DNA of 64,000 bases from Candidatus Poribacteria bacterium (GTDB taxonomy: Bacteria; Poribacteria; WGA-4E; PCPOR2b), in the NCBI GenBank assembly GCA_022822005.1, contig JAJECO010000016.1, positions 1 through 64,000 on the forward strand, read 5' to 3'. How positions within the stretch are numbered: the stretch's first letter is position 1; each line of letters opens with the position of its first letter. The translations under genes and the position numbers were made by a program. Below the pieces are notes generated by a model that was given only the letters and a program-made list of their open reading frames with translations, ran no database searches and was not told where the DNA came from. Shown here piece by piece: positions 12,470 to 53,143 of this stretch.

Positions 12470-13516
12470 CTATCCCACATCACCGAAGTTTTCGATGCTG
12501 GGAGGTAGGTTGCCGTCGGGCAGGTAGAATTCTTCTTTGATGTTCACAGGCACCGGCTGATGTGTCCGCATCGATTCAATCGCTTTTTCAAAGATGAGCG
12601 TCGGTATGCAGGCTTCCCACGCGTCCATCGGGCATGGACCGCCTTCAAGGCAGAGTTTGGCGAACATGCTCATCTCCTCGTCGAAGCCGTTATGGTATTC
12701 GTTATGCTCGATGCCGGGCTCGTCAGTTCCTTGGAATGTGAGGTTGCCAAATCGAACTGTTGCGGCACTTACGGATCCAGCCAAGACCTCGGCATAGTGT
12801 TTGGGGAGCGCGCCGCCGCTGCCGACCGTACTGAAGACGGAGGTCCCGATCCCGCCGTTGGCGAATCGGATGATGATTGTGCTGGTGTTTGTGGGTTGGC
12901 CGTCGTAACCCATGGCAAGAATTTCTACCGGTTGGGAACGCATAACGTGCCAGATCCAGTGGAGATTGTAGCCGGAGTTATCGAGGATACCGTCGCGGCC
13001 GTAGGGACCTTCGGGGTCGTTCGGTTTGTCGTAGGAGACGCGGCAGGTGAAGAGGGTGTAGTATGGCTGGGGGATAACTTCGCGCAGCCGTTTGGTTACT
13101 GGCGAATGTTTGAACCACCAACCGCTCATCAATTGTACGCCTGACTCATGGACAGCTTTCTGTACCTGTCGTGCTTCGTCGAGTGTCATCGCCAGCGGTT
13201 TCTCGGCAAAGATGTGTTTACCTGCTGCACAGGCTTTGATGGCGATGTCCGCATGGGTGTCGTGGGTTGAGCAGATGAGCAGGGCATCTATGTCGGGATC
13301 GGAAAGAATACGGTCGAGATCGGTTGTGTAGTAGTCCGCATTTCCTTCTTCAGCGCGTACCCGTGCCCCGACCCGTCGTCCGCTTCTGCTTACCCCTTCC
13401 TCAATAACATCCATCGTAGCAACGAGATGGATTTCCGGTGTTTTCAGGATGTTCGGTATATGGGCGCCGCTGATTCCACCGCAGCCGATAATTGCAACGT
13501 TCAGTTGTTTCGCCAT
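12470..13516 (-). CDS. Gfo/Idh/MocA-family oxidoreductase
   Basis: A 348-residue NAD(P)-dependent sugar or polyol dehydrogenase-like protein. The Rossmann start is VAIIGCGGISGAH and the EKPLAMTLDEA motif carries the family catalytic Lys; a C-terminal alpha/beta domain holds substrate. AAGGAG precedes the ATG at 13516. It is the downstream member of a minus-strand cluster with a TIM-barrel isomerase (10 bp upstream) and an amidohydrolase, which suggests oxidation of a sugar or inositol-like compound. Its TAG stop lies at the edge of a REP palindrome. The substrate is unknown. Confidence 0.88.
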   Translation of the reverse strand: MAKQLNVAIIGCGGISGAHIPNILKTPEIHLVATMDVIEEGVSRSGRRVGARVRAEEGNADYYTTDLDRILSDPDIDALLICSTHDTHADIAIKACAAGKHIFAEKPLAMTLDEARQVQKAVHESGVQLMSGWWFKHSPVTKRLREVIPQPYYTLFTCRVSYDKPNDPEGPYGRDGILDNSGYNLHWIWHVMRSQPVEILAMGYDGQPTNTSTIIIRFANGGIGTSVFSTVGSGGALPKHYAEVLAGSVSAATVRFGNLTFQGTDEPGIEHNEYHNGFDEEMSMFAKLCLEGGPCPMDAWEACIPTLIFEKAIESMRTHQPVPVNIKEEFYLPDGNLPPSIENFGDVG

Positions 13517-21113: not shown

Positions 21114-22130
21114 ATGGCTTCAACGGATAGCAAGGTTCGTATCGGGATTTATGGGTGCGGGTCTTGGGCGAACAGAACTCACATCCCGAACCTGCTGCAG
21201 CTCGATGGCGTCGAGATTGTCGCGGTCTGCGATAGCAACTTAGAATCGCTCAAATCGACGGCTGAGGCGTTCGATATTCCCAAAACCTACTCCGACGCAC
21301 ACGAGATGGTGGGGAACGAAAATATGGACGCGCTTTACTCCGTCGTCCCGGCTTATGCACGCACAGATGTCGAAGCGACCGCCGCCGCCAAAGGGATTCA
21401 TATCTTCAGCGAGAAGCCGCAGGCGTTGACGATGGAGGTTGCACACAGAATTGATGCTGCGATCCGGGGGGCTGGCGTGATTAGTACTGTCTGTTTTCGG
21501 GAACGGTATCGCCCCATATTTCAGGAAGCGCGTAAACGGTTGGAAGGACAGAAAATTGTCCACGTCCGATTCCAAAGTGTCAGCGGACTCCCCGCCGCCC
21601 CATCTGGATCGCAGAAGGATTCTTGGTGGTCTGATATGGACAAATCGGGTGGTCAGGCGTTGGATTGGGGTGTCCACGCGACGGACTACTCCCGTTTCAT
21701 GACAGGCTTGAACGTCGACCGAGCGCAAGCGTTCTACTGCCAGCGTCCCTCGTATCACAACCCGCTGACCTCCTCTTTCAACTATTGCTTTTCCAACGGA
21801 GCGACGATGACGTTGACCTTTGTCTCAGCGGCTCCCAGTTTTCGGGCAGAGCCGTGGTTCACCGTCTTCTACGAAGGCGGGCATCTGGCGGTGTATGGCT
21901 ATAACTCCATCGAAGTCAACGGTGAAATGGTCTATCAAGCGGAAGAGTTTGATCCGTGGTTCGAGCAGGACAGAATTTTCGTTGAAGCGGTGCGAACCAG
22001 TGACGCCAGCCTCTTGTTGAACGACTATCACGATGGGCTTTTCTCTTTAGCCCTGGTGCTTGCAGGTTGGGAGTCCGCTCGTCGAAATGGGGAATGTATC
22101 TATGTTCCGGCGTTTATGGAGAAGAGGTAA
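21114..22130 (+). CDS. Gfo/Idh/MocA-family oxidoreductase
   Basis: 338 residues. The Rossmann start is IGIYGCGSWANRTHIPNL and the catalytic-Lys motif is SEKPQALTMEVAH. The middle of the protein (DKSGGQALDWGVHATDYSRFM) fits the C-terminal domain where a conserved Asp/His pair binds substrate. A GGAGG precedes the ATG. It follows the SHMT-like gene by 28 bp, so both likely serve one pathway. It is only distantly similar to the 12.5 kb member. The substrate is unknown. Confidence 0.87.
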   Translation: MASTDSKVRIGIYGCGSWANRTHIPNLLQLDGVEIVAVCDSNLESLKSTAEAFDIPKTYSDAHEMVGNENMDALYSVVPAYARTDVEATAAAKGIHIFSEKPQALTMEVAHRIDAAIRGAGVISTVCFRERYRPIFQEARKRLEGQKIVHVRFQSVSGLPAAPSGSQKDSWWSDMDKSGGQALDWGVHATDYSRFMTGLNVDRAQAFYCQRPSYHNPLTSSFNYCFSNGATMTLTFVSAAPSFRAEPWFTVFYEGGHLAVYGYNSIEVNGEMVYQAEEFDPWFEQDRIFVEAVRTSDASLLLNDYHDGLFSLALVLAGWESARRNGECIYVPAFMEKR

Positions 22131-22381: not shown

Positions 22382-22445
22382 GGCGCAGTTGGAAACAGCG
22401 CCTACCAAACGGGAGAATGGACGGCGCAGTTGGAAACAGCGCCTA
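22382..22445. repeat. Tandem GGCGC-agttggaaaca-GCGCC REPs
   Basis: Two direct copies (22382-22404, 22423-22445) of GGCGC-n11-GCGCC ending CTACC. Inverted copies lie at 52918-52982. Confidence 0.65.
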
Positions 22446-22520
22446 CCAAACATGGGGAGCGAAAGTGTTGCGCGATTTCTTAACACGAGCCAAAATCAGA
22501 TCTAAGTGGGGGAGCCAAGT

Positions 22521-24308
22521 ATGAGAAAACTGACAGATCATCTCTTTTTTGTTCAAGACACATGCAGCGTTTACGGGGTAACGGCAAACGGAAAAACCCT
22601 GCTGATAGACTGTGGAACATCTCCAGCGCGACTTGAGACAAACGGTGTTCGAGGGGTCGATCAGGTATTACTCACCCATTTTCATCGGGACACGTGCTCC
22701 GCTGCAGCTCACTGGAGAAGGGGGGGTGCACAGATTGTATTTCCGTTTGCGGAGAAGCGTTTTTTTGAGGAGACGGATCTTCTCAAGGCGTCCTATGATA
22801 TCTACGACAACTACACCTCCTACTACCCCTGCTCTGGTCCTTTGGAAGATCTCGCGCCGGACCGATACGCTTACGACTACGAAAGTTTTTTATGGGAGGG
22901 GATTTCTTTCAATGTGATTCCGCTGCCGGGTCACACCTTCGGTTCGGTGGGCTACCTTTTCGAGTTAGATGGACAGCGGATACTTGCCTGCGGGGATCTG
23001 ATGTCGGGTAGCGGGAAAATTCGGGACTATTACTGGAGCCAGTGGAACTATATGGACTTCCAGGGGCATATCAATCATTTGGAGAGCCTAAAGACCGCTG
23101 CGGGGCTCAACGTGGATCTCATTCTACCGGGACACGGCGAACCGTTTGAACCGACCGAGGAAGCGTTTTCCGATCTACAAGCAGCACTGGGGGAATTGTA
23201 TAAACTGTTCCATGCGGAACCGTACGAACAGTATCGTCCTGAATTCCGTCAAATCACGCAGCACGTCTACGAGATCACGAACTCCAGTGCTAATACTTAT
23301 ATCATCCGGGACGACGATGGACACGCGCTTTTTATCGACTGTGGATACACATCGAACGCGGCGATCAGCGCGAATCCGCACCGTTATATCGACCATCTGT
23401 CGCCCTACCTCGAAAAGGAGTTAGGGATCCACACCGTCGAGTGGTTTCTGCCAACCCACTATCACGACGATCACCTCGCCGGCTACCCGATGTTGCAGGC
23501 ACGTTACGGGACGCGGGTGGTGTCTTCTCCTGAACTGAAGGATCTTTTGGAGCATCCAGAAAATTATGATATGCCTTGCGCGGTGCCTCACGGAATGACG
23601 GTTGACCATGTTGTTGAACGGGGAGAGGCTTTCCGGTGGCGCGGGATTGACTTTTTCGTAGAACAGCATCCGGGTCAGACCTTATACCACCATCTTATCT
23701 GGTTCACGGTGGATGGGCAGAAATTCTTGTGCGTTGGGGATAATATCTCCGGGATGTCATTCCGGGAACAGCGGGATTTTATTCACTCATTCATCCCGAA
23801 GAACCGGACCCCGGTTTCGAGTTACCGGGACATGCCCCAGCAGATTCTCAATGCCGATCCAGATTATCTTTTTACCGGTCATGGTGGTTGTATCTCATTC
23901 GATCAGGGTAAAGCAGAACGGTGGGTTGGCTGGATGGATAGGTGGACGGATATCTTCACGCAGATCCTTGACCAACCGCACCCGAATATGGGGATGGATC
24001 CGCATTGGGTGGAATTTTATCCGTACAAGGTTCGGATCCAACCGGGTGCGACGGTGACGTTCACCGTTAATATCACCAATCATGAGCAGGAAGCGCGAGA
24101 ATGTAATCTTCGTTTCCGCTCGGTGGACGGTGTGGAGTTCTCTCAGGACGCGATAGACCTCCAAGCACCGGGAGGGACGAATACTACCTGTGAGGTGGAG
24201 ATCACCTTCCCGGAACAGTTCACCACCCACGCGCTTCCCATTCTGGCGGATGTCACATGGAATGGGAGTCATCTCGGTGAGATTGCCGAGGCTGTCGCTT
24301 ACTGGTAA
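22521..24308 (+). CDS. Double metallo-beta-lactamase-fold hydrolase with Ig-like tail
   Basis: 595 residues from the ATG at 22521 (GGGGGAG upstream; a GTG at 22506 is less likely). Domain 1 (about 1-230) has LTH53FH55RD57T with the last His of HxHxDH changed to Thr, then PGHTFGSVGYLF, CGDLMSG and LPGHGEPF. Domain 2 (about 245-480) has a complete motif H313YH315DD317H318, HPGQTLYHH, VGDNISG and FTGHGG. Residues 500-595 read as an Ig-like beta-sandwich (GATVTFTVNITNHEQEARECNLRF). Two active-site copies in one chain, one degenerate, suggests domain 1 is regulatory or structural. No signal peptide is seen. Confidence 0.83.
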   Translation: MRKLTDHLFFVQDTCSVYGVTANGKTLLIDCGTSPARLETNGVRGVDQVLLTHFHRDTCSAAAHWRRGGAQIVFPFAEKRFFEETDLLKASYDIYDNYTSYYPCSGPLEDLAPDRYAYDYESFLWEGISFNVIPLPGHTFGSVGYLFELDGQRILACGDLMSGSGKIRDYYWSQWNYMDFQGHINHLESLKTAAGLNVDLILPGHGEPFEPTEEAFSDLQAALGELYKLFHAEPYEQYRPEFRQITQHVYEITNSSANTYIIRDDDGHALFIDCGYTSNAAISANPHRYIDHLSPYLEKELGIHTVEWFLPTHYHDDHLAGYPMLQARYGTRVVSSPELKDLLEHPENYDMPCAVPHGMTVDHVVERGEAFRWRGIDFFVEQHPGQTLYHHLIWFTVDGQKFLCVGDNISGMSFREQRDFIHSFIPKNRTPVSSYRDMPQQILNADPDYLFTGHGGCISFDQGKAERWVGWMDRWTDIFTQILDQPHPNMGMDPHWVEFYPYKVRIQPGATVTFTVNITNHEQEARECNLRFRSVDGVEFSQDAIDLQAPGGTNTTCEVEITFPEQFTTHALPILADVTWNGSHLGEIAEAVAYW

Positions 24309-24463: not shown

Positions 24464-25993
24464 ATGACAGCCCCACACATTAATCCGGCGCAACACAAAC
24501 AGCTATTCCTCGACGACCACGCGATTGAGCGCACCTCTAATGTGAACCGGACGCTGCATCAGCCAGATAAACATGGACCAATCTTGAAGGCTGATCGTTC
24601 TCGTGAGCAGGTGTATGTCCAGAGTGGAAACGCACCGCAGTGGAACTCTGAAAAAGGGATCTGGGAATGGTGGTACGATGCACACTACGCCATTCCACCC
24701 GGCGAGATAGCAGGCACGGAGAGTAGTCGTAAGCATTACGCAACATCAACGGATGGGGTTCACTGGGAAACGCCTTCACTGGGGCTTTATCAACGGCGGG
24801 GATCGAAAGACAACAACATCGCCTACGATTCTAAGTTAGAGTTTCTGACCCGTCGAGGCGTTTACAACCCACCGGAAATCACTGAGAAATACCTGTATCA
24901 CGTGATTCGTGATGAACGCGATGATGATCCCCAACGTCGCTATAAGGGACTGTTCAGCGATACACGCAATATGGGACGATTGCCGGGCATTTCGCCGGAC
25001 GGTTTCCGTTGGACCTTGCTCGATGTGCCTCCGATCCCCAGCGAAGACACCTCCAACTTTATCTATGACGAAATTAGTAATCAGTATGTCGCCACTGTGA
25101 AACAGCGCACGGTATGGGGCCGGTCGCTTTGGGTCTCAACGAGCGCCGACTTTGCGAACTGGACTGAACCGAAATTGGCGCTGCATACGGATGAAATTGA
25201 TAGAGAAAATCGGAAGCGTCGGATTCGCGAGGTTGTGGAAAATCCCGTATATCTCACACCGCCGGTCCTGGAAGACGTCGATTATATCGCACAACTCTAT
25301 ATGATGCCGGTGATGCCTTATGAGGGGATGTATATCGGTTTCCCGTTACTGTTTAATCCCGCGGGCCCCGACCTACCACAAATGAACCACTGCGGTATCA
25401 ATCAGGTGGAACTAGCGACCTCTCGTGATCTGTATAACTGGGAACGTGTGGCAGATAGGGAAGTGTTTATCGGGGTCGAGCCGTGGGATGGAGTGAATTA
25501 CGGCACCACGCAGGTCGCTGTGTGCAGTCGTCCGATTGTGCACGACAACCGAGAGATACGGATTTACCACAACGCCCATCGCTTTCGTGGTCACCATAGC
25601 ATCTACAGCGAAGAGTACGCTGAGTTCTTTAACGATGCGGGGGCGATCTATCTGGCGAAACTTCGACTCGATGGGTTCGTTTCTCTGGACGCCGAAACGG
25701 AGGGGACGGTTATTACAAAGCAGTTCACGCTAAACGGAGAGGCCCTGTATGTCAACGCAGATGCTTCCGGCGGTGAACTCCGCGCTGAAGTTATAGATGC
25801 GGAGACAATGCAACCGCTTCCGGGGTTATCCGAGGGAGAATGCGTTCCCCTTAACGGAGATCACTTGGGTGGAAAATTGATGTGGCAGGATTCGCCGCGT
25901 TTGGTCAGCGAAAAGGCGGTGCGTCTCCGCTTCATATTGCGGGGTGCGAAGCTGTATGCGTTCTGGCTGGAACAGGACGGCACGCGGGGGTAG
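24464..25993 (+). CDS. GH32/GH43-like five-bladed propeller protein
   Basis: About 509 residues; the ATG at 24464 with AAGGA upstream is preferred over the ATG at 24404, which lies in repeat DNA. The fold is suggested by KQLFLDDHAIERTSNVNRTLHQP, HYATSTDGVHWETPSLGL, NQVELATSRDLYNWERV and YHNAHRFRGHH, patterns common in glycosidase-like beta-propellers of Planctomycetes and Poribacteria; the last third looks like a beta-sandwich. Catalytic residues cannot be assigned. Its last codons and stop (GTRG-stop) overlap the start of a MITE-like element, so the 3' end was probably changed by insertion. No signal peptide. Confidence 0.7.
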   Translation: MTAPHINPAQHKQLFLDDHAIERTSNVNRTLHQPDKHGPILKADRSREQVYVQSGNAPQWNSEKGIWEWWYDAHYAIPPGEIAGTESSRKHYATSTDGVHWETPSLGLYQRRGSKDNNIAYDSKLEFLTRRGVYNPPEITEKYLYHVIRDERDDDPQRRYKGLFSDTRNMGRLPGISPDGFRWTLLDVPPIPSEDTSNFIYDEISNQYVATVKQRTVWGRSLWVSTSADFANWTEPKLALHTDEIDRENRKRRIREVVENPVYLTPPVLEDVDYIAQLYMMPVMPYEGMYIGFPLLFNPAGPDLPQMNHCGINQVELATSRDLYNWERVADREVFIGVEPWDGVNYGTTQVAVCSRPIVHDNREIRIYHNAHRFRGHHSIYSEEYAEFFNDAGAIYLAKLRLDGFVSLDAETEGTVITKQFTLNGEALYVNADASGGELRAEVIDAETMQPLPGLSEGECVPLNGDHLGGKLMWQDSPRLVSEKAVRLRFILRGAKLYAFWLEQDGTRG

Positions 25994-52686: not shown

Positions 52687-53143
52687 GATAGATTCTCCTC
52701 TCAAAGATAAGGCAGCATCATTATAGCAAGTTAACACGGAGAAAGTCAAGTGGATTGGTGCAAATTTAACATGATGAAATCCTCAAGCGACTGGTTATCA
52801 GCGATGATATCGCTGGGGATAACGACGCAGGATGTACTGGATTCGGCGTCGGTGGTTGCGGGTGATTTGCTAGGCAATATCTAATTCAGTTTACTGCGCT
52901 GTCCGTTCTCCCGTTTAGTAGGCGCTGTTTTCAACTGCGCTGTCCGTTCTCCCGTTTGGTAGGCGCTGTTTCCAACTGCGCCGATGCGGTGCGGTTAGAA
53001 ACCGCACCTACCGGGGTGGATTGAAGTCGGTGCGGTGAGAAAACGCACCTACCGGGGGCGGAGTAGATTTGAACATATACCTAACTTAGGTTATAATTCT
53101 TGCTGTTTGGTGTAAGAACACCATAACCTAAGGAGGATTAACG
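52687..53143. repeat. Gap with small open reading frame and REP quartet
   Basis: A 37-codon frame at 52771-52884 (MMKSSSDWLSAMISLGI, then DVLDSASVVAGDLLGNI) is uninterrupted but lacks a ribosome site. The REPs are GTAGGCGC-n-GCGC (52918-52940, 52960-52982) and GGTGCGGTtagaAACCGCACC-CTAC (52989-53012) with a diverged copy (53029-53052). AAGGAGG precedes the LRR gene. Confidence 0.5.

Follow-up and report, generated by a model that had tools for sequence, protein, structure and literature searches.

What does a protein do when it carries two metallo-beta-lactamase (MBL) fold domains in one chain and the first of them lacks a canonical metal ligand? A gene in the window, by which we mean the whole 64,000-nucleotide stretch analyzed here, raises this question (Table 1). 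We propose that its product is a two-headed MBL-fold hydrolase in which the second domain (D2) would be the main catalytic centre, the first (D1) an auxiliary metal-binding head and the substrate a small-molecule ester or lactone, a reading, drawn from sequence comparison, that we hold to be evenly balanced between right and wrong.

Table 1. Coordinates of the features discussed, given as positions in the window
Feature	Position	Strand	Details
Tandem MBL-fold protein gene	22521..24308	+	595 aa; ATG start at 22521, stop ends at 24308
MBL domain 1 (D1), residues 1-232	22521..23216	+	ligands H53, H55, D57, H138, D159, H205; T58 replaces His
T58 codon ACG (position 121, MBL numbering)	22692..22694	+	Q 101, N 9, T 8, S 6, H 4, E 1, V 1 among 130 distinct D1 rows
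MBL domain 2 (D2), residues 240-482	23238..23966	+	ligands H313, H315, D317, H318, D407, H454; Q386 replaces third site-1 His
Q386 codon CAG (position 196, MBL numbering)	23676..23678	+	Q 75 / H 57 of 132 distinct D2 rows
H390 codon CAC, four residues after Q386	23688..23690	+	His in 66/75 Q386 rows and 6/57 H386 rows
C-terminal Ig-like beta-sandwich domain, residues 484-595	23970..24305	+	residues 480-595 folded separately by AF2; many relatives are of NEW3/NPCBM-associated type
Gfo/Idh/MocA oxidoreductase, upstream neighbour	21114..22130	+	adjoins the gene in six genus genomes

Architecture of the chain and its place among MBL-fold proteins

The start codon of the gene is preceded by a GGGGGAG stretch, an in-frame GTG lies 15 bases upstream of it, and full-length orthologues, 86-90% identical, were present in the other five genomes of the genus. 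Judged by eye, the N-terminus looks to be without a signal peptide, and the protein would reside in the cytosol. Two stretches of the chain matched Pfam Lactamase_B (PF00753; 96.5 bits against a cut-off of 22.7), which places the protein in the MBL superfamily. When compared with one another using hhalign, D1 and D2 aligned end to end (E 8.7e-40), with H138 paired with Q386, T58 with H318, D159 with D407 and H205 with H454; this comparison, like the trees, was made without the partial rows L010, L043 and L044. Together, the two Lactamase_B stretches and the hhalign result bear out the two MBL domains that the first-pass annotation, made from the letters alone, had proposed, and the pair probably arose when one MBL domain was duplicated within the chain. 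L010 (G023 contig 333, 1634-3428) consisted of two adjacent matches covering residues 2-214 and 215-595, reflecting either an assembly frame break or a split gene.

An AlphaFold2 model of the full chain, built from 15 rows, reached a pLDDT of 85.1 and a pTM of 0.85, with residues 94-101, 232-240 and 277-291 poorly modelled. Most of the matches listed for this model by VIA-align sat in D1, at Z about 20-21; D1 matches fill that list, and a full-length two-domain structure was absent from it. The C-terminal residues 480-595 were folded alone by AF2, using 93 of the 113 available rows, and formed a beta sandwich with a pLDDT of 93.9. Foldseek returned modest matches for this domain (best E 8e-5), including FixG-related 2r39 (E 3.0e-4, TM-scores of 0.55 and 0.58), MSP, ASH/HYDIN domains, complement C4 and sialidase 1wcq. 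We take MSP, the ASH/HYDIN domains and the matched part of the sialidase to be Ig-like, and the beta sandwich together with these matches confirms the Ig-like C-terminal domain suggested earlier. PF10633 (NEW3/NPCBM-associated) matched 50 of the 93 C-terminal rows at E <= 0.01, the best at 6.9e-08, and did not match the window copy.

We then compared the 595-aa protein with curated families. None of 25 NCBIfam models, the best of 33 matches, reached its cut-off; the highest scores were those of bla_class_B_core (54.6 of 100 bits) and of the glyoxalase II equivalog GloB (45.7 of 200.8), and the latter does not support a glyoxalase II identity. An RNase Z identity likewise found no support, its two profiles falling well short of their cut-offs (18.3 bits of 292.95; 19 of 252), and neither did membership of the B1 or B3 subclass (26.9 against 200 and 44.2 against 240, respectively). 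Nor does D1 have the HRH/DQK ligand set of the B3-RQK enzymes: its set is HHH/D-T-H, and that of most relatives HHH/D-Q-H. Glyoxalase II shares the MBL fold and a C-terminal extension with the window protein, which instead has two MBL domains. The earlier likening to RNase Z or Glx2-type fusions is thus not supported, both profiles lying far below cut-off. The first-pass annotation had added that the three parts occur together in no familiar family; it was right in that no curated Pfam or NCBIfam model spans the chain, but the combination itself is widespread (see below). The three-part chain is a family without a name in Pfam and NCBIfam, annotated plasmid copies being called only "MBL fold metallo-hydrolase," and our searches of the open-licence PMC literature found no description of a tandem-MBL/Ig-like family.

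Metal ligands of the two domains across the family

To compare the two sites, a ligand census of 139 rows was compiled, giving 133 distinct rows after removal of six duplicates, of which 130 had D1 and 132 had D2. The DNA patterns used for fetching relatives contained HRD (D1) and HDDH (D2), so that these letters were favoured in the fetched rows; the phylum-wide, Paenibacillus-order and planctomycete-phylum rows came from protein search instead. The last two of these samples, searched by protein profile, contributed 24 rows, four of them repeating proteins already found with the DNA motifs.

The D1 motif reads H53-F-H55-R-D57-T58 (HFHRDT), with T58 in the place of the last His of HxHxDH, just as had been claimed from the sequence. 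A sequencing error at T58, which would have undone that claim, was ruled out because Thr is encoded in 6/6 genus genomes, by ACG in the window genome and by ACC in the other five. Since position 58 is mostly Gln in the wider relatives, T58 is, on this comparison, the local form of a change that runs through the family, and no fresh lesion. The other six D1 ligands were kept in 116/130 distinct rows and changed in 14/130, D57 being kept in nearly all, and a full canonical D1 site was found in 0/130. His occurred at position 58 only in L012, L013, L093 and L138, all with other D1 ligands lost. This sub-clade, with a broken D1 (HF, E, L/M) and a fully canonical D2, is by its ligand pattern the clearest pseudo-domain form of the family. 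Among the rows from the protein-profile search, 7/23 had D1 changed at one or more of the six other ligands, and six of these seven remained after duplicate removal; one of the changed rows, L135, differed solely by Glu for D57. We also considered C157 as a substitute D1 ligand, by comparison with B1 Cys221, and rejected it; it lies two residues before D159, and relatives have Cys or S, T, V or I at this position.

The claim that the first site is degenerate therefore holds only in part: the last His is absent, but H53, H55, D57, H138, D159 and H205 are kept, Gln is common at position 58 and in B1 lactamases the residue at this position is not a ligand, so that "degenerate" is too strong a word. 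According to a passage of PMC7785958, position 121 of the B1 lactamases is not a zinc ligand. In our reading, D1 has the same ligand set as the BcII mutant C221D, in which site 1 consists of three His, site 2 of Asp, Asp and His, and position 121 is a non-ligand; BcII, however, is a single-domain enzyme, and the window protein falls short of the B1 profile. A passage of PMC4212336 describes C221D as keeping its catalytic efficiency while its Zn affinity is lower and the MIC drastically reduced. The analogy with this mutant and with the B1 enzymes suggests that D1 could still work, and a D1-like ligand set may fail when zinc is scarce, as the MIC of C221D would indicate. The B3-RQK lactamases (CSR-1, SPR-1 and SER-1; HARLDQ motif) have Gln at position 121, as do most D1 relatives, and HARLDQ structures matched D1 of the model at Z about 20 (VIA-align); they differ in carrying R118 and K263 where D1 has His, and in being single-domain proteins. 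CSR-1 has low metal affinity, as stated in a section of PMC10318434. Judged by its ligands, the D1 site is altered but not necessarily dead.

D2 carries H313-Y-H315-D-D317-H318 (HYHDDH), and the motif reported earlier is indeed present; D2 is nevertheless not canonical, as it has PGQT where PGHT is expected, with Q386 replacing the third His of site 1. Its other six ligands were kept in 132/132 distinct rows, from both bacteria and archaea, and in 24/24 rows from the protein-profile search. The position four residues further along is usually His in rows with Q386 and seldom in rows with H386 (Table 1), and these counts, although strong, correspond to three state changes at position 386 in a tree of 112 rows and to two to three independent pairs. 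The third site-1 ligand of D2 may have moved four residues along the chain, Q386 and H390 being a candidate compensating pair. The motif variants are PGQTxYH in the window branch versus PGHTEYQ in the Bryobacterales-type clade, and PGH(A/C)DYH occurs in the intermediate rows L053, L063, L067, L071, L104 and L140.

In six close pairs, dN/dS was 0.03-0.05 for D2, 0.08-0.12 for D1 and 0.12-0.18 for the C-terminal domain; the pairs include L008, whose dS of 1.3 to 2.7 is near saturation, and the L009 pair was left out. By this measure, both D1 and D2 are under purifying selection, and it is stronger on D2. The earlier view of D2 as the better-kept site is consequently upheld, both by the ligand counts (132/132 versus 116/130 for D1) and by the lower dN/dS. 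Mean column conservation over the family was 0.50 for D1, slightly above the 0.43 of D2, which fits poorly with a purely passive D1.

Distribution and gene neighbourhood

A match at 1e-20 was found in 79/84 Candidatus Poribacteria genomes, a few of the matches being partial and most falling in a second branch, 23-31% identical; copies sharing 65% identity or more with the window protein were present in 9/84, and the window's genome has both branches. The protein of row L037, also from Candidatus Poribacteria, was identical to that of the same-genus row L003. A scan of the genome collection confirmed at least 322 relatives, and the 79 loci kept came from Acidobacteriota, Bacillota, Chloroflexota, Planctomycetota, Actinomycetota, rhizobia, archaea and others. 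At E 1e-40, relatives were found in 8/149 genomes of the sampled order of a Paenibacillus and in 12/199 of the sampled phylum of a planctomycete, the seed genome included in each case. On these counts the family is widespread but, in the samples, sporadic outside Candidatus Poribacteria.

The genes upstream code for a DAO-type oxidoreductase, an SHMT-like protein and a Gfo/Idh/MocA dehydrogenase, and Gfo/Idh/MocA genes also occur next to or near L038, L041 and L042 within the part of the clade's loci that was scanned. The window genome (6.0 Mb) holds at least 150 Gfo/Idh/MocA matches (150 scored of 177 candidates), a very large expansion that includes window 12470-13516 as well as the adjoining gene. 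Because this family is so common in the genome, its adjacency to the tandem-MBL gene may be due to chance.

We scanned the neighbours of 14/19 Paenibacillus-type loci and 17/18 rhizobial/planctomycete loci, using longest-ORF calls, not curated genes; for the Bryobacterales-type clade, 19/23 loci were listed only. The 79 neighbours in the Paenibacillus-type clade included seven binding-protein-type permeases, three DeoR regulators and several glycosidases, sugar kinases and aldolases, which point to carbohydrate use. A Deinococcus relative sits beside alpha-mannosidase, aldolase and sugar-kinase genes, a Haladaptatus relative near gluconolactonase and mandelate-racemase genes, and a Sinorhizobium relative near genes for 3-hydroxyacid/CoA and amino-acid transport functions, which together are reminiscent of carnitine breakdown. 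The Mesorhizobium relative had no clear neighbour theme, and the pooled rhizobial/planctomycete neighbours had no shared theme among the 25 of 78 families listed. Given that neighbours differ between clades and that this genome is so rich in Gfo/Idh/MocA genes, context is a weak guide to the substrate, and the neighbour genes make an ester or lactone hydrolase a reasonable guess and no more.

Other elements around the gene were also recorded. The downstream gene (window 24464-25990) had no Pfam match at E 0.001, and its relatives appeared as 14, 15, 20 and 27 matched pieces in four related genomes, some with an internal stop, so that the genes themselves may be fewer. A 28-base intergenic repeat, paired 41 bases apart, is found upstream of the tandem-MBL gene at window 22383-22451 and again at 52913-52981; its 24-base core had 38 genomic copies at up to one mismatch and none in the reversed control. 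A second repeat, of 30 bases with C-run and G-run arms, has nine window copies at up to three mismatches (positions 2675, 11394, 17744, 22274, 24389, 33148, 41568, 45949 and 47453), two of which flank the tandem-MBL gene.

Probable roles of the two heads

The retention of six D2 ligands in every D2 row argues that D2 is likely the catalytic centre, which would act through an intact site 2 (D317, H318, D407 and H454) and a site 1 in which H313 and H315 are joined by a third ligand that is weaker or has moved (Q386 or, perhaps, H390). D1 would bind metal as a second head, its site 1 being complete (H53, H55 and H138) and its site 2 consisting of D57, D159 and H205, in which the usual His is missing and Gln stands in most relatives. 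As D1 decays in several lineages and D2 does not, D1 is probably auxiliary, and could serve in substrate binding, regulation or slow catalysis. The substrate is probably an ester, a lactone or a similar small molecule of carbohydrate or organic-acid breakdown.

The same contrast between the domains would also be expected along the lines of the first-pass annotation, if D1 were a pseudo-domain with a structural role and no catalysis and D2 an ordinary dinuclear enzyme. The parallel would be long-form RNase Z (tRNase ZL: ELAC2 and Trz1), which likewise has two MBL domains per chain, one better kept. D2 holds its six ligands in all rows while D1 is changed in 14/130, purifying selection is stronger on D2, and a precedent exists: Trz1 is presented in a passage of PMC7785958 as a two-MBL protein in which one domain has lost metal binding, and tRNase ZL is thought, according to PMC2942849, to derive from tandem duplication. 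The window protein differs, however, in its largely preserved D1 ligands, in the Q386 of D2 and in the Ig-like domain after it. Six of the seven D1 ligands kept in 116/130 rows are unlike a dead domain, the Q386 of D2 is at odds with a normal dinuclear site, and the RNase Z profile scores far below cut-off; we consider this account rather unlikely, if the most serious of the competitors. At the opposite extreme, both heads might be catalytic, working one after the other or attacking two bonds of a single substrate. Most rows conserve the ligands of both domains, purifying selection acts on both domains, and lactamases with altered ligand sets are active (as described in parts of PMC4212336 and PMC10318434); yet D1 ligands were lost in several lineages and D2 ligands were not, and no two-step pathway was seen among the neighbours examined, which leaves two catalytic heads improbable.

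A sensor or scaffold, in which both sites bind metal or ligand and neither catalyses, would suit the window branch, where each domain is without one canonical ligand. The presence of D317 and the other five D2 ligands in 132/132 rows, across bacteria and archaea, and of D57 in nearly all D1 rows, tells against it, and we regard such a role as very improbable. It is doubtful, though conceivable from the ligand patterns, that the window branch has complementary half-sites, with a full site 1 and a reduced site 2 in D1, and a full site 2 and a reduced site 1 in D2, whose third site-1 ligand has perhaps moved. If so, this would be a two-headed enzyme holding its metals at different positions in each domain.

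For the proposed two-headed hydrolase, the result is an improved account of an enzyme of ordinary type and does not reveal a novel sort of system. Many of the numerous MBL-fold proteins lack an assigned function, and naming the tandem-MBL family would improve annotation. The separate ligand changes in the two sites, moreover, provide natural variation with which to ask how complete an MBL metal site must be for catalysis.
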